DNA of 34,615 nt, from positions 1-34,615 of the forward strand of contig JAHEAM010000002.1 of assembly GCA_024642765.1 (NCBI GenBank). The letters are read 5' to 3'. Positions 2,862 to 26,112 of the stretch are shown piece by piece. How positions within the stretch are numbered: the first letter of the stretch is position 1; each line of letters begins with the position of its first letter. The stretch is from Planctomycetaceae bacterium. GTDB taxonomy: Bacteria; Planctomycetota; Planctomycetia; Pirellulales; Pirellulaceae. The notes under the pieces are model-generated. The model worked only from the letters and a program-made list of their open reading frames with translations. It was not told the origin of the DNA and searched no databases. Both the position numbers and the translations under genes were made by a program.

Positions 2862-3101
2862 ATCAGTCCTTTATGGAAAAATCCGGATAATTTCTTGCAT
2901 CCATTGGAATCGAGATCATTTCTCGACGAAAGGTCCCTTCGCAAACACTCGATAACGTTCACTTACGCAGCACAAAACCGAACAGTTGCATAAATTCCAG
3001 AGATTTGGCTCGGTGCTTTTTCCGCATGCTATACAACGGAACGCGTAAAACAGCGACAGTATTAAGAGACATAATACCAATACACAAAAAGGAAGACACA
3101 C

Positions 3102-4115
3102 ATGCAGATTGGCATGATTGGCCTGGGGCGAATGGGCGCGAACCTTGTTAGACGACTCATGAGGCATGGGCACGAATGTGTTGCCTACGACGTCAACCCT
3201 AGCGCAGTGCAAATGCTTGTAAAGGAAGGCGCAACGGGAGTGACATCGATCTCCGAGTTTGTCGCTGCACTGGATACTCCCCGTGTTGCGTGGATCATGG
3301 TTCCTGCCGGCTTGACCGAAGCCACCATTGCCGATTTGAAACAACACCTTTCGCCTGGCGATACGATTATCGATGGCGGTAATTCGATGTGGCAAGACGA
3401 CGTTAATCGCGCGAAACGATTATTGGCCGACAACCTTCACTACATGGATATTGGTACTTCCGGAGGCGTTTTCGGATTGGAGCGAGGTTATTCACTGATG
3501 ATTGGCGGCGAGAAGGAATTGGTCGCACGTTTGGAACCGATCTTCGACGCTCTGTCGCCTGGAATCGACTCAGCCGAGCGCACACCTGATATTTCCGGCC
3601 CGCCGCGACCCGGCGAAAAAGGCTGGTTGCATTGTGGACCGGCCGGGGCAGGGCACTTTGTCAAGATGATTCATAACGGCATCGAATATGGAATGATGGC
3701 CGCGATCGCCGAAGGACTAGGAATTCTGAAAGCTGCGAATGCTGGTTGCGACGAACGCCAACATGATTCGGAAACCTCACCGCTGAGGAACCCTGAATAC
3801 TATCGCTACGATTTTGATATTGGTGCAATTGTTGAACTCTGGCGTCGTGGTAGTGTGGTGTCTTCGTGGCTCATCGACTTGACCGCTCACGCATTGATGG
3901 CGGACCCTAGCTTAAATGAATTTTCCGGAAAAGTTTCTGATAGTGGCGAAGGCCGCTGGACCTCGCAAGCGGCAATTGAATTGGGTGTGCCTGCCCATAC
4001 CATTACTGCTTCGCTCTTCGAACGTTTTTCCAGTCAGGGCAGCTCACTGTTTACCGATAAGGTTCTATCGGCCATGCGAAAAGAATTCGGTGGACACCAC
4101 GAAAAGAAATCCTAA
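3102..4115 (+). CDS. gnd: 6-phosphogluconate dehydrogenase (decarboxylating), short GntZ/YqeC-like form
   Basis: MQIGMIGLGRMGANLVRRLMRHGHECVAYD (Rossmann), IIDGGNSMWQDD, GPAGAGHFVKMIHNGIEYGMM; followed by zwf and pgl. Confidence 0.95.
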   Translation: MQIGMIGLGRMGANLVRRLMRHGHECVAYDVNPSAVQMLVKEGATGVTSISEFVAALDTPRVAWIMVPAGLTEATIADLKQHLSPGDTIIDGGNSMWQDDVNRAKRLLADNLHYMDIGTSGGVFGLERGYSLMIGGEKELVARLEPIFDALSPGIDSAERTPDISGPPRPGEKGWLHCGPAGAGHFVKMIHNGIEYGMMAAIAEGLGILKAANAGCDERQHDSETSPLRNPEYYRYDFDIGAIVELWRRGSVVSSWLIDLTAHALMADPSLNEFSGKVSDSGEGRWTSQAAIELGVPAHTITASLFERFSSQGSSLFTDKVLSAMRKEFGGHHEKKS

Positions 4116-4251
4116 CCCTTCATCGAGTGAGAGCCGTCTCAATTTTCGCCGGCAAATTTTTGGTTTGCGAACTTAAAATCAAAAAAAATGTGCCTGACTC
4201 TTTCGAACACCCCATCTGTATTTTGAACATTAAAATCGAGCTGACTCAAAT

Positions 4252-5661
4252 ATGACAACCAATCGAAAAGACAATTATGGCGACGCCTTTCTGCTCTTTG
4301 GAGCAACGGGTGATTTGGCCTACAAAAAGATTTTTCCGGCACTGTATGAGCTGACAGTTCAAGGCCGCGCGGATGTTCCGATTGTCGGTATCGCTCGGCG
4401 AGATTGGACGGACGATCAGTTGCGAGAATACATTCGCGAATCAGTTCGAGAGCACAATGAACAGGCCGATGCCGACGTTTTGAACCAGCTGTGCGAACGT
4501 GTACGGTATTTGTCGGGTGATTACGCTGAGCCTGCGACTTTTCGACGATTGGCAGAGTTAACCAACAACGCCAAGCTCCCTGTTTCGTTTCTCGCCATCC
4601 CGCCTGATATGTTTGCGGACGTTGTTCAAGGTATGGCGTCCGTTGGCATGACGGACCGCGGGCGAGTCGTAGTCGAGAAACCATTTGGGCGCGACTTACA
4701 ATCGGCGCGAGAATTGAACTTGGTGCTCCATAGTCACTTGCGCGAATCGCAGATTTTTCGGATCGATCACTTTCTCGGCAAGGAACCGGTACAAAATATG
4801 CTGGTGTTCCGCTTTGCCAATTCGATGCTTGAGCCCGTCTGGAATCGAAACCACATTTCTTCGGTTTCGATCACGATGGCTGAGACTTTTGGCGTCGATG
4901 GACGAGGCAAGTTTTATGAGCAAGTCGGTGCGATTCGCGATGTGATCCAAAACCATTTGCTAGAGATGGTCGCGCTGTTGGCGATGGAACCGCCATCGAG
5001 TAACGACCCAGCTGCAATGCGCGACGAGAAAGTAAAGGTTTTCAAGGCCATCAATGCGCTCGACCCAGAGTCTGTCGTAAGAGGTCAATTCGAGGGTTAC
5101 CGTGCGGAAGAAGGCGTATCGCCCAATTCCGATGTCGAGACCTTTGCCGCGCTCAAACTCGAAATCGATTCGTGGCGTTGGGCGGGAGTGCCTTTTTACT
5201 TGCGAGCCGGCAAAAAGTTGGCGAAAACGGTTACCGAAGCAGTGATCGAATTCAAACAACCACCGCGTATGTTGTTTGCAGACAAGGTCGCTTGCCCGAA
5301 GCCCAATCGGCTGCAGTTCCGCATGAAGCCCGACGAAACGATTACCCTCAATCTTCAGGCTAAAGTGCCAGGAATGAAAATGGTCTCGCGCGACGTTGAC
5401 CTCTCGGTTGATTACGAAAGCGCTTTGGGTGGAAATTCTCTTGACGCCTATGAACGATTGATTGCTGACGCGCTGAGTGGAGACGAAGGGCTTTTTGCTC
5501 GCCAAGACGGCGTGGAAGAAGCTTGGCGGATCGTTGAACCCATCTTGCGTCCGACGCGCTATGTGCGGTCGTATCAAGCAGGGACTTGGGGGCCTGAAGC
5601 TGCCAACATGTATTTCCCTTTGGTCCATGAAGCTGGTTCATTGGCGGGCCAGAAATGTTAG
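4252..5661 (+). CDS. zwf: Glucose-6-phosphate 1-dehydrogenase
   Basis: LFGATGDLAYKKIFPALY, VVVEKPFGRDL, FRIDHFLGKEPVQNMLVFRFAN (active-site motif), PFYLRAGKKL. Confidence 0.97.
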   Translation: MTTNRKDNYGDAFLLFGATGDLAYKKIFPALYELTVQGRADVPIVGIARRDWTDDQLREYIRESVREHNEQADADVLNQLCERVRYLSGDYAEPATFRRLAELTNNAKLPVSFLAIPPDMFADVVQGMASVGMTDRGRVVVEKPFGRDLQSARELNLVLHSHLRESQIFRIDHFLGKEPVQNMLVFRFANSMLEPVWNRNHISSVSITMAETFGVDGRGKFYEQVGAIRDVIQNHLLEMVALLAMEPPSSNDPAAMRDEKVKVFKAINALDPESVVRGQFEGYRAEEGVSPNSDVETFAALKLEIDSWRWAGVPFYLRAGKKLAKTVTEAVIEFKQPPRMLFADKVACPKPNRLQFRMKPDETITLNLQAKVPGMKMVSRDVDLSVDYESALGGNSLDAYERLIADALSGDEGLFARQDGVEEAWRIVEPILRPTRYVRSYQAGTWGPEAANMYFPLVHEAGSLAGQKC

Positions 5662-6386
5662 TTGAATCGTTCGGCTCCACCGAATTGATGGCCGCTCGAG
5701 CGGTCGACGAAATTGTTTCGCAAGCTCACTCTGCCATAGCGTCGAAGAATCGCTTTACATTGGCCATCAGTGGCGGCTCGACTCCAAAGCGTATGCTCGA
5801 ACTGCTCGCGACTCGAAGCGATATGCCTTGGTCACGGACAAGTCTGTTTCAAGTCGACGAGCGCATTGCGCCATTTGCCAACAGCGACAGGAATCGAACG
5901 ATGCAAAGTCGCGCTCTCTTTGAATCAACCATGCTCAAGGAGCAGGATTTGAATGGCGTGCATTGGATGCCCGTCGATGATCTTGATCCGAACGACCAAG
6001 TTTCGCTTGCCGCTGCTGCTGAGCAATACGCCCAAAACATTCACGATGTTTGTAGCTCCAATGGCGCGTTGGATGTGATTCAGCTCGGAATGGGCGACGA
6101 TGGACATACGGCGTCGTTAGTTCCAGGAGACGCGGTTTGCGATGTCTTGGATCGCGATATCGCCATAACCCATTTCTACAAAGGCCGACGTCGCATGACG
6201 TTAACCTTTCCCGCACTGAATTCTGCCCGAATGAGGCTTTGGACGATCGGCGGATTGGATAAGGCCGGCGCCTTGAATCGGCTGCTTGCCCAAGACCCAA
6301 CGATTCCTGCAGGCCGTGTTGAGCAGCGAGAAAGCCTACTGCTCGCGTCACCGAATGAAATCCTGTTTCGACACATCGCATTCTAA
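5655..6386 (+). CDS. pgl: 6-phosphogluconolactonase
   Basis: LAISGGSTPKRMLELLA, LFQVDERIAP, IQLGMGDDGHTASLVPG; 7-nt overlap with the zwf end. Confidence 0.95.
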   Translation: MLVESFGSTELMAARAVDEIVSQAHSAIASKNRFTLAISGGSTPKRMLELLATRSDMPWSRTSLFQVDERIAPFANSDRNRTMQSRALFESTMLKEQDLNGVHWMPVDDLDPNDQVSLAAAAEQYAQNIHDVCSSNGALDVIQLGMGDDGHTASLVPGDAVCDVLDRDIAITHFYKGRRRMTLTFPALNSARMRLWTIGGLDKAGALNRLLAQDPTIPAGRVEQRESLLLASPNEILFRHIAF

Positions 6387-6531
6387 TCAGATTAGTCACC
6401 TTGCTAGCACCGAGAGTAATCGAGGGCCATCTAGTGTGCGCCGCGAATCGCTATTTTGAGAATGATCTAGCGACGAAATTCGCATTGCCATTATAATCTT
6501 GGTGGAAGCCACCCGTTTGCGACGTGTGGCC

Positions 6532-6563
6532 AATCCCAAAAAGGGGCATCCCTATTTGGGATT
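6532..6563. repeat. Nested inverted repeat/hairpin in the parA-like leader
   Basis: AATCCCAAA-A-AGGG-GCAT-CCCT-A-TTTGGGATT: perfect 9-bp outer arms, a symmetric A/A mismatch, 4-bp inner arms, GCAT loop. Begins 78 nt upstream of the ATG at 6610. Confidence 0.7.
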
Positions 6564-6609
6564 TATCTAATCGCTCGCAGCCCACGTGCATTTTTGGAAG
6601 GAACCATCC

Positions 6610-7467
6610 ATGCGCCGCATTGCAATCATCAATCAAAAAGGCGGTGTTGGCAAAACGACAACTGCCGTTAATCTGAGCGCAGCACTCGCTGAGTCTGGCA
6701 TGCGTGTTTGCATTTTGGATTTGGACCCTCAGGCGCATTCGTCGTTGCATTTGGGAATCGCGCTCGACGCGGATGAAGTTTCAATCTACCACTGTTTGAC
6801 CGGCCAGGCCAAGTTGGAACAAGCTCGGCATCGAATTGACGACCACTTGTGGGTTGTTCCGGCACATATTGACTTGGCTGCAGCCGAGATGGAACTTGCT
6901 GGAGAGGTTGGGCGTGAAATCATCCTGCGCGAACTCGTGGAAAAGGACAACGAAGAATTTGATTTTATGATCATCGATTGCCCACCTTCATTGGGTGTGT
7001 TGACATTGAATGCATTGACGACGGCAGGCGAAGTCTTCTTGCCGATGCAACCGCACTTTTTGGCGCTGCATGGTTTTAGCAAATTACTCAAAACAATTGA
7101 GCTCGTTTCCAAACGATTGAACCCAGTGTTAGCGTTGACGGGTGTCTTGTTCTGTATGCACGAAGGCGGTACGCGACTCGCTCACGAAGTCATCGGCGAC
7201 ATCGAGCAGTTTTTCGAAACCGAACGAAAAAAGGGCGGCATCTGGTCTGAAGTGACAACATTCGAGACTCGCATCCGTCGCAATGTTCGATTGGCAGAGG
7301 CACCGAGCTATGGGCAATCGATCATTCACTATGCGCCGACCTCACATGGCGCGGAAGACTATCGAGCCCTGGCAATTGAAGTGCTGGAACAATCAACGCT
7401 GCTTCCAGATGTTTCAGGTGCTCAAGAAACGGAAACAGTTCCCACACCTCCCGTTTCAATCAAATAA
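6610..7467 (+). CDS. ParA/Soj-family ATPase
   Basis: MRRIAIINQKGGVGKTTTAVNLSAALAESG (deviant Walker A KGGVGKTT), LDLDPQAHSSLHLG, FDFMIIDCPPSLGVLTLNAL, RRNVRLAEAPSYGQSI. In-frame ATG at 6610 is preferred over the track start at 6586. Confidence 0.92.
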   Translation: MRRIAIINQKGGVGKTTTAVNLSAALAESGMRVCILDLDPQAHSSLHLGIALDADEVSIYHCLTGQAKLEQARHRIDDHLWVVPAHIDLAAAEMELAGEVGREIILRELVEKDNEEFDFMIIDCPPSLGVLTLNALTTAGEVFLPMQPHFLALHGFSKLLKTIELVSKRLNPVLALTGVLFCMHEGGTRLAHEVIGDIEQFFETERKKGGIWSEVTTFETRIRRNVRLAEAPSYGQSIIHYAPTSHGAEDYRALAIEVLEQSTLLPDVSGAQETETVPTPPVSIK

Positions 7468-18669: not shown

Positions 18670-21417
18670 ATGAACCGAAAATATTCCGTCCGAATTTTCA
18701 CAGTAGCTCTCATTGCTTTTTATGCAGGATTTGTGGCAGCACAAGAGCAAGTTGAAACTGCTCCCAACGATCAAGACCTTGTTGGTCGCACGCGCGCCGA
18801 TGCGATCGTTACACCCGTCAATCAAATCTTGACACCTGCAGGTCGCCAAGTAGAGTTGTCGCGACTTCGGCCGCAAGCTTTGGCACTGTCGCCTGACGGA
18901 AGACGGCTTGTTGTTTCTGGCAAGACCAATGAGTTACTCTCGGTCGATCCAGTTTCTGGCGAAATCCTGCAACGCATTGACTTGCCAGATGATGCCGTTC
19001 ATGAACCGCCGACTGATCCTGCGTCAACCAATATTTTGAAACCAGACAAGAGTGGACAAGCGAGCTTCCTGGGTCTGGTCTTTTCCAACGATGGTAGCAA
19101 GCTGTACATGAGCAACGTTAATGGATCGATCAAGGTCTTCGACATTGATTCGGAAAGTAATATTACTCCCTCGTTTACCATTCCGTTGCCAAAAGCAAAT
19201 GCTCCACGGCGAGCAGCAGAGGTTCCCGCGGGATTGGCAATCAGCCAGGATAATCAGCGTTTGTTTGTCTGCGGAAATCTCTCGAACAAGCTCTTGGAAA
19301 TTGATCTGGTGAAAGGCACAGTGCTGCGTGAGTTTGCGGTCGGTGCCTTGCCCTACGATGTTGTCTTGCTCGATGGCATGGCGTTCGTAAGCAATTGGGG
19401 TGGGCGTCAACCGAGCGACGACGACCTGACTGGCCCAGCGGGGCGCGGCACCGAAGTTCGCGTCGATCCCGTCAGCCATATTGCTAACGAAGGCTCCGTG
19501 TCCGTCATCGATTTGCAAACCGGTGAACCGAAGGCTGAGATCTTGGTGGGACGGCATGCCTGTGATCTTGCCATTTCTCCCGATCGTCGCCACGTCATTT
19601 GCGCGAACGCGGGCAGTGATAATCTTTCCGTAATTGACGTGGCCAGTTTGCAGGTCAGCGACACCATTTGGACACGAGTTTCTCCCTCAGACTTGCTCGG
19701 CGCAAGTCCCAACGCAATTTGTTTCAACCAGGCTGGCGATCGACTTTACGTGGCAAATGGTTCTCAGAATGCTGTTGGCGTCATTGCACTCGATCTCGAC
19801 GAGCGCGGCGACTCGCGATTGATGGGTATGATTCCCGTCGGCTGGTATCCGGGTGCCTTGGTGATCGATGGTTCCCGCAATGCTTTGTACGTGGCGAACA
19901 TCAAAGGCCTTCCCGAAACGCCTCGAAAGCAGGGCGACGGTGTCGAAGGGTTTAACACCCACCATTATCATGGCACACTTTCGTTGTTTCCCCTTCCGGA
20001 CGAAAAACAACTTGCAGAATACAGCGATCAAGCGGCATTGAATTTACGGCGGCAAGCAATCGAAAACGCATTCTTGCCACCGCGAGCCGATGCCCCGCAG
20101 CGTCCCGTGCCAGAGCGAATCGGTGAGCCAAGTCCTATCAAACACGTCGTCTATGTCATCAAGGAAAATCGAACTTACGATCAAGTCTTCGGGGCACTAG
20201 CAAACGGTCGGGGTCACGCCGATCTTTGTATTTTCGGGCGCGACATCACTCCCAACCAACACAAGCTCGTCGACGAATTTCACCTTCTCGACAACACGTA
20301 TTGTGCCGGCATTCTCAGCGCTGACGGACACAACTGGTCAACAACCGCGATGAGTACCGACTACATGGAAAAAAGTTTCGCGGGATTCCCGCGCAGCTAC
20401 CCCGATGGTATGGGTATCGATGAGGCCGACGCAATGGCTTACTCGACAGCGGGATTCATTTGGGACAACGCCCGAAAGCACAATATTTCGATTCGCAATT
20501 ACGGCGAATTCATGATGCCCAAGGTCCGTTGGCGCGACCCGGAGCGCAAGGGACAACCCGACTACATGGCCTGTTACAAAACGTGGAAGGGTGAAAACAA
20601 GGACGTGATCTTCGAGAGCGAACCTGCTGTCGAATCGATCCGAGAATTTTCACCGAAAGGATACGTTGGTTGGGAGATGTCAGTTCCTGATCAATTCCGC
20701 GCCGATTTTGTGATCAAAGAGCTCAAGGAATTCGAACAACGTGGCGAATACCCTCAATTGGTAATTATTTGCCTGCCGAACGACCACACGAGCGGCACAA
20801 GTCGTGGATGTCCGACACCCGCTTCATGCATGGCAGACAACGACCTGGCCTTTGGACGCATTGTCGAGGCACTCAGCCATTCAAAGTTTTGGCCCGAGAT
20901 GGCGATCTTTTGCATTGAAGACGATCCGCAAGCAGGCTGGGACCACATCAGTGGGTATCGCACTACCGCATATTGTGCGAGTCCGTACGCGGTCCGCGGT
21001 GGCAAGACTGTCAGCACACTATACAACACGACCAGCGTGTTGCGTACGATTGAACAAATCTTGGGCTTGCCGCCAATGAATCAATTTGACGCGAGTGCGA
21101 CGCCAATGTTCGATTGCTTCACCCAAACACCAGATCTTACTCCCTTTGAGTCCGTTGCGACCAACGTTCCACTCGATAAGCTCAACCCAAGTCCCGCGTC
21201 GATCCGTGATCCCGTCCTTCGAGAAGATGCCCTTGTATCTGCTACTTTGAACTTTGTTCAAATTGACGCGGCTCCGGAGGACACGCTCAACCAAATCCTC
21301 TGGCGCAGTCAACGCGGTTCATCGATCCCTTATCCCACTTGGGCTACGGTTCCTGATGAAGACGGTGAGACAGAAGACGAAACGATACAGGAGCACCCAC
21401 CAACGAAGGGACCGTGA
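18670..21417 (+). CDS. Secreted YVTN/YncE-like beta-propeller fused to a phosphoesterase (alkaline phosphatase/phospholipase C superfamily) domain
   Basis: Signal peptide-like N-terminus; propeller repeats (LALSPDGRRLVVSGKTNELLSVDPVSGEIL, DLAISPDRRHVICANAGSDNLSVIDVAS); phosphoesterase start HVVYVIKENRTYDQVFGAL; late FCIEDDPQAGWDHISGYRT. Confidence 0.88.
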   Translation: MNRKYSVRIFTVALIAFYAGFVAAQEQVETAPNDQDLVGRTRADAIVTPVNQILTPAGRQVELSRLRPQALALSPDGRRLVVSGKTNELLSVDPVSGEILQRIDLPDDAVHEPPTDPASTNILKPDKSGQASFLGLVFSNDGSKLYMSNVNGSIKVFDIDSESNITPSFTIPLPKANAPRRAAEVPAGLAISQDNQRLFVCGNLSNKLLEIDLVKGTVLREFAVGALPYDVVLLDGMAFVSNWGGRQPSDDDLTGPAGRGTEVRVDPVSHIANEGSVSVIDLQTGEPKAEILVGRHACDLAISPDRRHVICANAGSDNLSVIDVASLQVSDTIWTRVSPSDLLGASPNAICFNQAGDRLYVANGSQNAVGVIALDLDERGDSRLMGMIPVGWYPGALVIDGSRNALYVANIKGLPETPRKQGDGVEGFNTHHYHGTLSLFPLPDEKQLAEYSDQAALNLRRQAIENAFLPPRADAPQRPVPERIGEPSPIKHVVYVIKENRTYDQVFGALANGRGHADLCIFGRDITPNQHKLVDEFHLLDNTYCAGILSADGHNWSTTAMSTDYMEKSFAGFPRSYPDGMGIDEADAMAYSTAGFIWDNARKHNISIRNYGEFMMPKVRWRDPERKGQPDYMACYKTWKGENKDVIFESEPAVESIREFSPKGYVGWEMSVPDQFRADFVIKELKEFEQRGEYPQLVIICLPNDHTSGTSRGCPTPASCMADNDLAFGRIVEALSHSKFWPEMAIFCIEDDPQAGWDHISGYRTTAYCASPYAVRGGKTVSTLYNTTSVLRTIEQILGLPPMNQFDASATPMFDCFTQTPDLTPFESVATNVPLDKLNPSPASIRDPVLREDALVSATLNFVQIDAAPEDTLNQILWRSQRGSSIPYPTWATVPDEDGETEDETIQEHPPTKGP

Positions 21418-21497: not shown

Positions 21498-22493
21498 ATG
21501 GAAAACTCAGAAATACCAACCGAATGTAGTAAATCGTGCCCGCCCCATGGTGCCGTTCCCGAATTGGATTTACCGCGCGAGCGTCGACAATCGCGGCCTT
21601 GGGAAAAAACAGATCTTGAAGGGCGATTGAATGCGAATTCCGATTCCAGTGCGCCAATCATGGTGCGCATTCCGCGGCGCTGGGATCGTTTCATTCGATT
21701 GGTTGGCGAAGCGAATGTTCGCAAACTTTTAAATGTACGCGTTGCGGTTTTTGGACTGGGTGGAGTGGGCAGCTATGCCGTCGAGGCATTGGCGCGATCG
21801 GCGGTTGGCTACTTTACACTCGTTGACTTTGATGATGTTTGTGTGACCAATGTGAATCGGCAACTACAAGCGTTTCCTGGAACAGTGGGACAACCCAAGG
21901 TCCATCTGTTGGCCGAACGAGTGCGGGCAATCAACCCCGACGCAACCGTTGATGCCATCCAAGCCTTCTTCGATCCCACGACAGCGGATGCTTTGCTCAC
22001 ACCGCGTCCAGATTTTGTTATCGACGCGATCGACAACGTGACAGCCAAGATCCATTTGGTGGCAACTTGTTTGCGAAACAACATTCCAGTTGTCAGCGTC
22101 ACAGGTTCAGGTGCACGATTGGATCCAACTCAAGTTCGAGTCGTCGACTTGAGTGAAACTCGTTACGATCCGCTGGCTAAAGTTCTCCGAAAAGAGCTTT
22201 CAAAGCAAGGCTTCGACGTTACCAAACATGTGGGCCTGCCCGTTGTATTCTCGGAGGAAGAAGTTCGCGAACCGATTGCACCGAGTTGGGACAACGAGGG
22301 TTTTCGATGCATTTGCCCACACGCCGAAGACTCGCCGCACGCTTGCGAAAAACGCCGGGTGATCTACGGCACCGCCGCGTTTGTGACTGCAGCCTTCGGA
22401 ATGGCCGCAACATCGATTGCAATCCGGAAATTGACGGAGCGACTGCCGATGGAAACGACTACTCAAGGCATTCCAGTAGACGTCCACAAATGA
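21498..22493 (+). CDS. tcdA: ThiF/E1-like enzyme, TcdA/CsdL-type tRNA threonylcarbamoyladenosine dehydratase
   Basis: RWDRFIRLVGEANVRKLLNVRVAVFGLGGVGSYAVEALARSAVGYFTLVDFDDVCVTNVNRQLQA; DFVIDAIDNVTAKIHLVATC. The conserved part begins at the internal ATG 21660 (MVRIPRRWDRF), so the first 54 aa may be a misplaced start. Confidence 0.88.
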   Translation: MENSEIPTECSKSCPPHGAVPELDLPRERRQSRPWEKTDLEGRLNANSDSSAPIMVRIPRRWDRFIRLVGEANVRKLLNVRVAVFGLGGVGSYAVEALARSAVGYFTLVDFDDVCVTNVNRQLQAFPGTVGQPKVHLLAERVRAINPDATVDAIQAFFDPTTADALLTPRPDFVIDAIDNVTAKIHLVATCLRNNIPVVSVTGSGARLDPTQVRVVDLSETRYDPLAKVLRKELSKQGFDVTKHVGLPVVFSEEEVREPIAPSWDNEGFRCICPHAEDSPHACEKRRVIYGTAAFVTAAFGMAATSIAIRKLTERLPMETTTQGIPVDVHK

Positions 22494-22550: not shown

Positions 22551-23184
22551 CAGACTGCGTGGGGTAGTTGCGGTCTGAAAGCAATCCGCCGCGAGATGTG
22601 CAATACCGACTGTATTAGTGGACAACTAATTCCCTGCAACTACAGTTACAAAGAATTCAGAATCGCGCGTTCGAACGCCGGGCAGTTGGATTCAAATGCT
22701 TTGCATCTTTGGCCGAGGGCAGGTTTCATCATGATTGCTCTGCCGAATCAGGACGGTTCCTTTCGCGGTACGCTATTTCTGCCAAAAAATGAGAAGATGA
22801 GCTTTTCCTCGCCTGTTGACCCAGCTGTCACAATGAAGTTTCTGTATGATCATTTTCCGGATGAAGAACTGGCATATTGCAAAATAGCGAACGACTTGAT
22901 GACGAATCCTGAGGGAACTCTGGGTACCGTCAGGTGTGATCGTTGGCATTTGGGACGAAGCGTTTTGATTGACGACCTGTCACGCAATGCTTCCGTTCAC
23001 GGGGCAGGGGGTCAATTCGGCTTTTGAAGATTGCCGTGAATTGATGACCTGTATAGAAGAATTTGCGACCGACTAGTCCACTGTGTTTTCCGAACTCACG
23101 CTTCGCCGTAAACCGATCGCCGACGAAATTGCGAACGCCGGCATGTTGTTAGGACCCTTTCTCTTGAATTTTGCCGCCAGTTAG
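22551..23184 (+). pseudogene. Degraded kynurenine 3-monooxygenase, C-terminal part
   Basis: Frame 1: GSCGLKAIRREM...SYKEFRIARSNAGQLDSNALHLWPRAGFIMIALPNQDGSFRGTLFLP...DHFPDEE...NPEGTLGTVRCDRWHLGRSVLIDD. A frameshift near 22975-22980 leads to CHAMLPFTGQGVNSAFEDCRELMTCIEEFATD, TAG at 23074, then in-frame VFSELTLRRKPIADEIANAGMLLG...LNFAAS to TAG at 23182. Resembles KMO motifs (YKEL, NALHIWPRG.FMMIALPN.DGSF, GDAAHA.VPFFGQGMN..FEDC, RKP.ADAIADLA). The N-terminal FAD-binding part was not found. Confidence 0.8.
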
Positions 23185-23190
23185 CGTCCT

Positions 23191-24396
23191 CTACTTGTCA
23201 ACGACGCGTAAAACATCGTTTCGCTTGAGAACCATGGGTGATGCGTTCTCACCGAACTCCAGGTGGCAATCGAACCAAACGCCAAGAGATGTTTCGGCAG
23301 GGAATTCAAACTCGCCGGTAACAATGTTGCCTTCACGCGAAATCTTGGTGGCTTCAACGGGCCCAATTTGCATCCAAGTTGGTGGGCCAACCGGTAGCTT
23401 TCGTCGTGTTGCATTCTCGGGAGTGAGTTCGAATTCAATTCTGTGGATCGAGCCAGACGTTACCGTTCCTGGACGAACCGTTTTTATGATGGCTTTGTGG
23501 CGCTCGCCAGCCTGTGTGTTGTCAACAACTAAGCCGGTCGACTTGCGACGCAACCCAGGGTTGTTTGACGTTTCAACGAGACCAGCATAGCCGCCGATAA
23601 TGTACGGGAATCTGCCGGGTGTGACATGATAGTGATAGCCCCGCGCATCGTCACGATGACCATTGCAGCCGTCGAGTGCTTGGTGCCCCGTCAAGTCCTT
23701 GGCCATCGTTCCATCTGCCTCGTAAGGACCATAAACTGGAAAGCCATCAAAAGCAAAGCCGATTACCGGCGAATGCTGATTGCCGTCGTCCTTGTATGGT
23801 GACTTCACACAGGTCGGATATTTGTGGTAGTGGTAAACGCCCGTTTGTTGTGGGTGACCACAACAAGAATCAAGCCAGACTTCGGTGTAGCCCTCGACAG
23901 CATTCATGCCTTCTATTTCGAAGGGATTGAAGAAGACCACGCCATTCATGGCCGTACCGATCGGGCCCATTGGTAATCGTGTAACCTCATCGGCCAAAAT
24001 GGGCTCAAGCGGCAAGCGAAAGGTAAACTGCTGCACGCGAATGGAATTGGGATTATCGCTGTTGGGAAAGATCGCGGTTGGGTGATTCGGGTAGCCCTGG
24101 CTCTCCATGATCAGGAATTTTTCGTCGTGACGCAGCCTGATATTATCGATGCCGTCTTCATTTGAGTCTTGTGTATGATAGGAAAACAAATCGACGAGTC
24201 GGTCACCGTCTTGGTAGTAATAGATCGGCGTATCGCCTTTCTTCAAAAACCACTTTCCACTGAGCGGTTCTAGAGCGTCTTTTTCTACAGGTGTTTCGGT
24301 AGCAGGCGCAGCTTGTTCTTGCCGACTGGCCAACAGCGGTTGCGCAGCCAATGTAAAAAATATAATCGTCAACAAAGTGAAAGTGCTCTTACGCAT
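23191..24396 (-). CDS. Secreted YHYH-domain protein
   Basis: Track ORF extends to 24552, overlapping the upstream gene; MRKSTFTLLTIIFFTLAAQPLLA at 24396 is a signal-peptide start. VYHYHKYPTCV; GFAFDGFPVYGPYEADG; HRDDARGYHYHVTPGRFPYIIGGYAG. Confidence 0.85.
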   Translation of the reverse strand: MRKSTFTLLTIIFFTLAAQPLLASRQEQAAPATETPVEKDALEPLSGKWFLKKGDTPIYYYQDGDRLVDLFSYHTQDSNEDGIDNIRLRHDEKFLIMESQGYPNHPTAIFPNSDNPNSIRVQQFTFRLPLEPILADEVTRLPMGPIGTAMNGVVFFNPFEIEGMNAVEGYTEVWLDSCCGHPQQTGVYHYHKYPTCVKSPYKDDGNQHSPVIGFAFDGFPVYGPYEADGTMAKDLTGHQALDGCNGHRDDARGYHYHVTPGRFPYIIGGYAGLVETSNNPGLRRKSTGLVVDNTQAGERHKAIIKTVRPGTVTSGSIHRIEFELTPENATRRKLPVGPPTWMQIGPVEATKISREGNIVTGEFEFPAETSLGVWFDCHLEFGENASPMVLKRNDVLRVVDK

Positions 24397-24415
24397 TGTG
24401 GATTGCTCGCTTGAG

Positions 24416-25870
24416 TTAGTTGTTTGAATTCGTTTCTTGCACCACTGTTGGGTCGGCAATGCAGTAGAGAAACTTGTCGGATCGCAGGAATATTTGCCCG
24501 TTATCAACGGCGGGGGTTGCATTGAATACACTTGTGTCAGATTCGATAACATTTTGAGCGACGATTTTCATTTCGTCGGACGGCTCGATGACGATCACGC
24601 CACTGGTTCGTGTTTGAAAATAGAGGTGTCCATTTACGGCGATCGGCGACGCATAGATCGGATGTCCACTGTTGAGTTTGGGAACGCGATCACGGTGAAT
24701 CAATTCTCCGTTCTTTGCATCGCTGCAGTAATACATGCCTTTATCGTCAATCCAATAGTGTTTTCCGTCGAGCAATACGGGCGTTGCGACGTAGGATGAA
24801 TTGCGGCTGGACCAGAGAATATTGGAATGGGTGATATCACCCGTTCCGCCCGCTGTAAGCGCGACGCTCCCAGACGAACGGTACCCTCCGAACGCATAGA
24901 CTGTGGTTCCATCGACCACAACGCTTGGTGATAGGTTGCCGGTTAGTGACGTTTCTGCATACCAAGTTAACTTGCCGGTCTGGGGATTGATTCCCCAGAT
25001 TTCTCCCGGGACTGCGAGCACAAGATCATCGCGCGATTGATCGACGTGGACAATCGCTGGCGTACCATAACAAAGTTCCAGGCTGGCGGCTGGTGCGTCC
25101 CAGGCGACTTCGCCAGTCGATTTTTTGAGTGCGAAAATGGTTTTTCCTTCTTCGGCAGCATTCACAATAACGAGGTCGCCGTACAACGTCAAACTCGCGG
25201 CCGAACCCCAACGTCGATTGCTTGACTCCTTGCCAACCGAAACGCGCCAGAGTTCTTTGCCCTCGAAGTCAAAGGCGAGAACTCCGGACTTGCCGAAAAA
25301 CACGAACACAAGTTCGTCGTCAACAACAGGTGAGTTCGTGGCATAGCCATGTTCTGGTACGCCCATTCCCGAGTAGGCATCTTCGCTGGCGTCGTTTTCA
25401 ATTTCACGCGACCAAAGGATTGTCCCGTTCTGTCGATCAACGCAGCTCAAATGTCGTACCAAGTCGGCGGCACTGTCGGACCTATTGTCCGGTTCGCCGT
25501 AACCCGAATACGAAGTGACAAATACAAATCGATCCGTAAGAACAGGGCTAGAGGCGCCGGCTCCCGGTAGCTTTGTCTTCCAAGACAAATTTTTTGAATC
25601 GCTCCATTCGGTTGGGATGTTTTTTTCGTTACTAATGCCCGTTCCGTTTGGGCCGCGAAATCGCGACCAGGGCAGGGGGGAAGGATCCTGAGCGGTAGTC
25701 TCAAGATTGGCATCCACAGGCGTCGCCTTCGCCGCCGAATTCAAAACCATGTTGCTAGGCGAACCATCGTCCATAGGAGGACGGCCTCCGGTTCGTTGGC
25801 TAAAAACAAATCCACCAGCCGCCACCACGCACGCGACGCCAACAAACACAACGATCCAGACTCGAGTCAT
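24416..25870 (-). CDS. Membrane-anchored PQQ-type beta-propeller repeat protein
   Basis: MTRVWIVVFVGVACVVAAGGFVF anchor; WSRFRGPNGTGISNEKNIPTEWSDSKNLSWKTKLPGAGASSPVLTDRFVFVTSYSG; repeated blade motifs. Alternative start 25891. Confidence 0.88.
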   Translation of the reverse strand: MTRVWIVVFVGVACVVAAGGFVFSQRTGGRPPMDDGSPSNMVLNSAAKATPVDANLETTAQDPSPLPWSRFRGPNGTGISNEKNIPTEWSDSKNLSWKTKLPGAGASSPVLTDRFVFVTSYSGYGEPDNRSDSAADLVRHLSCVDRQNGTILWSREIENDASEDAYSGMGVPEHGYATNSPVVDDELVFVFFGKSGVLAFDFEGKELWRVSVGKESSNRRWGSAASLTLYGDLVIVNAAEEGKTIFALKKSTGEVAWDAPAASLELCYGTPAIVHVDQSRDDLVLAVPGEIWGINPQTGKLTWYAETSLTGNLSPSVVVDGTTVYAFGGYRSSGSVALTAGGTGDITHSNILWSSRNSSYVATPVLLDGKHYWIDDKGMYYCSDAKNGELIHRDRVPKLNSGHPIYASPIAVNGHLYFQTRTSGVIVIEPSDEMKIVAQNVIESDTSVFNATPAVDNGQIFLRSDKFLYCIADPTVVQETNSNN

Positions 25871-26112
25871 TCGATAGTTTTCCCGATTCAAAACGCGTTC
25901 GCCCGAAACTCAGTTAATAGTTTAGCGTGGAACCCTGAAGATAACGTTAAGCCAATTGTGCCGAGTCGCTCCAACGAAAATTCGCATTAGAAGGGCAATG
26001 CCGACTTGAAACGCTTTGTTTTTCCGCCTGCGACGTCGACTATAATTACCAATTCGACCTGAATGATTTTTGCGAGTGCACAAGCGCGAGTTTTTTTGAA
26101 TGGAGATCGCAA

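Follow-up and report, generated by a model that had tools for sequence, protein, structure and literature searches.

Our analysis identified a plus-strand remnant of a kynurenine 3-monooxygenase (KMO)-type gene, located between two intact genes that encode a ThiF/TcdA-like protein and a YHYH-domain protein. This remnant is very probably a nonfunctional pseudogene, derived from a spare second gene for a KMO-type FAD monooxygenase, the real KMO being intact elsewhere in the same genome. The window (the whole stretch of DNA analyzed, 34,615 nucleotides) corresponds to the entire contig C224 of a draft genome that totals 4.14 Mb over 659 contigs, with a completeness of 88% and a contamination of 2.7%. 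Judging from its sequence, the locus would make no enzyme, and we regard it as an ordinary gene relic.

Identification of a KMO-type remnant spanning two reading frames

A profile HMM built only from intact sequences (37 KMO and KMO-like proteins) was searched against all stop-to-stop frames of the whole window with the speed filters off. Two significant matches were obtained, both on the plus strand: (i) the segment 22551-23024 (E = 7.8e-36); and (ii) the segment 22969-23073, in the +1 frame (E = 1.8e-11). Their homologous parts are given in Table 1. No third significant match was present in any stop-to-stop frame of the window, where the next best segment had an E-value of 1.1. The two matches are collinear and adjoin on the profile (163-300, then 299-330) in frames one apart, which is the pattern given by a frameshifted gene, and such significant homology running in order across two frames is expected of a pseudogene. 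In addition, a phmmer search of the first-frame segment against PDB sequences matched residues 169-310 of the KMO 6fox (E = 6.8e-16).

The first-pass annotation had proposed that the 143 amino acid ORF present at 22596-23027 (plus strand) is not a free-standing gene. The comparison with KMO proteins across frames agrees with this proposal, as the ORF forms part of the two-frame profile match. The similarity had been read as starting at SYKEF; the KMO identity of this stretch holds, while the homology begins further upstream, from about position 22578 (KAIRREM...). Likewise, of the "middle and C-terminal part of KMO" described at first, the middle was recovered (profile 163-330) and the C-terminus was not (profile about 345-417 missing). 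The frameshift near 22975-22980 and the TAG at 23074 were both found where they had been placed. The frame said to resume after this TAG does stay in register to about position 23115, although this weaker similarity is not significant alone: confident homology stops at 23073, and 23184 is merely the end of the reading frame. Within this tail, STVFSELTLRRKPIADEIANAGM aligns in register with ...RRPNADAIADMAL of the intact KMO, and RRKPIADEIANAGM matches KMO in register and is too short to reach significance alone in the HMM search. A natural protein end at 23184, as in a short KMO-like protein from Acidobacteria (L076, see below), would be suggestive only, given that too few residues are involved.

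Table 1. Features of the KMO-type remnant and its two neighbors in the window
Feature	Coordinates	Strand	Evidence
ThiF/TcdA-like neighbor, intact, outside the remnant	21498..22493	+	ThiF E = 2.6e-39; TcdA model 203 bits (cut-off 304)
KMO-type remnant, first frame	22578..22982	+	Profile 163-300; KAIRREM...SYKEF...LHLWPRAGFIMIALPNQDGSF...VRCDRWHLGRSVLIDDLS; HMM and phmmer (6fox)
Shift from frame +0 to frame +1 within the conserved GD motif	22970..22980	+	Profile 300 in frame 0, then 299 in frame +1
KMO-type remnant, second frame	22975..23073	+	Profile 299-330; TCHAMLPFTGQGVNSAFEDCREL...; HMM E = 1.8e-11
In-frame TAG	23074..23076	+	Position is Trp in several intact copies (alignment)
Tail up to the next TAG	23077..23184	+	STVFSELTLRRKPIADEIANAGM in register, then unalignable LLGPFLLNFAAS
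YHYH-domain neighbor, intact	23191..24552	-	PF14240 E = 5.9e-26; 7 bases between its end and that of the remnant's frame

Disablements, missing ends, and sequence decay

The GD motif belongs to the FAD monooxygenase fold. In the present assembly, the frame change interrupts this motif, whose intact form is LLGDAAHAIVPF, and the uninterrupted form of functional KMO (LLGDAAHA-PFxGQGxN-FED) does not occur in the remnant. The FAD-binding N-terminus (profile 1-162, which includes the GxGxxG segment) gave no significant HMM match anywhere in the window, in line with its reported absence in the first-pass annotation, and the C-terminal part (profile about 345-417) was likewise unmatched throughout the window. 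The C-terminal segment ALENYxxM...PRYSMV, which is found in both PDB 6fox and the genome's intact KMO (contig C435, see below), is absent after about position 23115. There are only 84 bases between the end of the TcdA-like gene (22493) and the codon at which KMO homology starts, so that the N-terminal third of the protein, which takes up about 490 bases, was either deleted or never arrived. Thus, the remnant shares with KMO (PDB 6fox and 5fn0, and the C435 copy) the same middle segment and the GD-motif/GQG-FED region, but differs from these proteins in lacking both the FAD-binding N-terminus and the C-terminal segment, and in carrying a frameshift, a stop, and changed near-invariant residues.

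The remnant was compared with the intact copies at 54 near-invariant columns (conservation of 94% or more in these copies), and it carries the conserved residue at 38 of them (70%). In comparison, 36 intact proteins, left out in turn, showed 88-100% agreement, and the divergent KMO-like protein L076 showed 81%. The remnant therefore deviates at conserved sites more often than each of the intact relatives, a pattern expected for a pseudogene. The coding-phase G+C pattern has faded as well, with values of 0.48/0.43/0.50 at the three codon positions vs. 0.61/0.42/0.54 for the corresponding region of the intact gene on C435. Most other genes of the window follow the C435-type pattern, and a few (pstA, p30865) are also low at the first position. 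Finally, the terminal branch of the remnant in our trees is 3.0-3.3 substitutions per site, the median being about 0.4.

Intact kynurenine-pathway enzymes elsewhere in the genome

Contig C435 encodes a full kynureninase (TIGR01814, 424.8 bits vs. a cut-off of 246.4) directly followed by an intact 453 amino acid KMO, which matches PDB KMO over its full length (E = 7e-112) and groups in the tree with the KMOs of four genus mates, each of which has a single one. Directly upstream of this pair lies an ORF for a cyclase-family protein (PF04199) that may possibly correspond to the kynurenine formamidase. Furthermore, a tryptophan 2,3-dioxygenase (TDO) is encoded on contig C358 and a 3-hydroxyanthranilate dioxygenase (3-HAO) on contig C396, both above the Pfam cut-offs. 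The remnant had been suggested to reflect the past loss of a kynurenine-pathway gene. As a functional loss this is rejected, because KMO, kynureninase, TDO, and 3-HAO are all intact in the same genome. A look through the literature for this pathway in Planctomycetes yielded nothing useful. Rather, the presence of an intact KMO together with other pathway enzymes indicates that the remnant was a second, dispensable gene.

Relatives and genomic context

Each of the four genus mates carries one intact KMO, and none has a second copy. Among 241 genomes of the family, 34 had a match, each with one intact copy, and a second place was found in the source genome only. No close relative of the remnant was detected in 392 genomes of the phylum, the 241 family genomes, a scan of GTDB contigs, or a plasmid collection; the best identities were 40-47%, with a maximum of about 47% over partial matches of useful length.

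The upstream pst-phoB genes are conserved in part among the genus mates (phoB with 65-71% identity), whereas the tcdA-remnant-YHYH interval has no counterpart, and no half-decayed intermediate, in the genus-mate stretches examined, indicating that the region is variable. The TcdA-like gene at 21498-22493 has no clear orthologue in the four genus mates, its best matches being ThiF-family proteins with 28-38% identity, and the YHYH neighbor also lacks a clear orthologue there. For a 915 amino acid beta-propeller/phosphoesterase protein encoded at 18670-21417, only one of the genus mates has an orthologue (65%; G003:C208), and there the frame is broken at the contig end. When read from its first listed ATG, the YHYH gene shares 137 bases with the PQQ-type gene upstream of it (23191-25891, minus strand); translation may in fact begin at a later ATG (MRKSTFTLL, with a signal-peptide-like stretch after it). 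Neither repeats around the remnant nor promoter-like sites and terminators were found above chance.

Origin of the remnant and alternative explanations

In the best tree, the remnant falls outside the KMO clade of the family and beside L076, a 386 amino acid KMO-like protein from Acidobacteria (support 92/91). The gene encoding L076 is located at positions 5479-6639 of contig QIAR01000177. Within 2907-6639 of that contig, its neighbors encode a Pyr4-type transmembrane terpene cyclase (PF25129, E = 1.3e-24), a YhhC-like 2OG oxygenase (NF041706, above cut-off), and a 334 amino acid protein that by eye resembles a terpene synthase and is unmatched in Pfam. This segment is perhaps a terpenoid gene cluster. 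L076 resembles the remnant in its GD motif with C-H, its CIxEF motif, and its early C-terminal end, but it is intact and adjoins the terpene cyclase and 2OG oxygenase genes, and the position of the remnant next to it is uncertain.

This tree position fits a KMO-like gene that was gained horizontally, rather than a native copy, and decayed after arrival, possibly from a secondary-metabolism branch of KMO-like proteins; we give this origin, which the first-pass annotation had raised as a relic of horizontal acquisition, nearly even chances. In its favor, besides the terpene cyclase gene adjoining that of L076, the remnant and L076 have in common the peptides HLWPRAGFIM/HIWPRAGFIM and CIEEF/CIREF as well as a GD motif with C-H instead of A-H, and the neighboring tcdA and YHYH genes lie in the variable interval described above. 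However, both proteins sit on long branches that attract each other, which makes the placement of the remnant unreliable, and an AU test rejects neither its grouping with the native family KMOs (p = 0.31) nor with the genome's own KMO (p = 0.21). Moreover, the G+C content of the remnant (0.47) is near that of the window (0.505), and surrounding repeats are absent. The position outside the family clade and the very long branch allow a foreign origin, and the AU test does not reject the native grouping.

It is also quite conceivable that a native KMO duplicate, or a partial duplication, decayed in place. An intact native KMO exists, grouping with it is not rejected by the AU test, and rapid decay would be sufficient to produce the long branch. 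On the other hand, the unconstrained tree sets the remnant outside the family clade, its identity to the genome's own KMO is 36% over 208 sites while other families in the phylum reach up to 40%, and the genus mates carry no second copy. The trees would thus accommodate both duplication and horizontal gain. A more specific origin, in a separate short KMO-like branch tied to secondary metabolism, whose gene was gained by an ancestor (perhaps with neighboring genes) and then lost, appears unlikely.

It is very improbable that the gene is intact and was disrupted by sequencing or assembly errors. The draft is fragmented (659 contigs), and a single indel plus a single stop is the usual form of such errors, but the protein lacks both of its ends at places occupied by intact neighbors (21498-22493 and 23191-24552), and the many changed near-invariant residues are unexplained by base-call errors. 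The frame change in the GD motif together with the two missing ends rules out one base-call error as the cause, in line with the earlier judgment that a sequencing error could account for the frameshift but not for the missing N-terminus and the TAG together. A functional small protein from the 143 amino acid frame is likewise very improbable: the first frame runs through 158 codons without a stop and its sequence alone is compatible with expression, but no homologue of such shape was found (all matches lie inside full-length enzymes), the frame corresponds to an enzyme interior without the cofactor domain, the codon-phase G+C signal is weak, and promoter-like sites are not above chance.

Taken as a pseudogene, the remnant would derive from a spare second KMO-type copy, either an ancient paralogue or a gene acquired horizontally, that selection did not keep, presumably because it was redundant. 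The N-terminal third, with its FAD-binding segment, and the C-terminal region would have been lost, probably by deletion, and the middle part would have gained the GD-motif frameshift, the in-frame stop, and many near-invariant substitutions. For annotation, the 143 amino acid ORF should not be called a gene, and, with an intact KMO present on another contig, a broken KMO is no sign that the pathway itself is broken. If its foreign origin is true, the remnant would document a further case in which a KMO-type enzyme was acquired but not retained.
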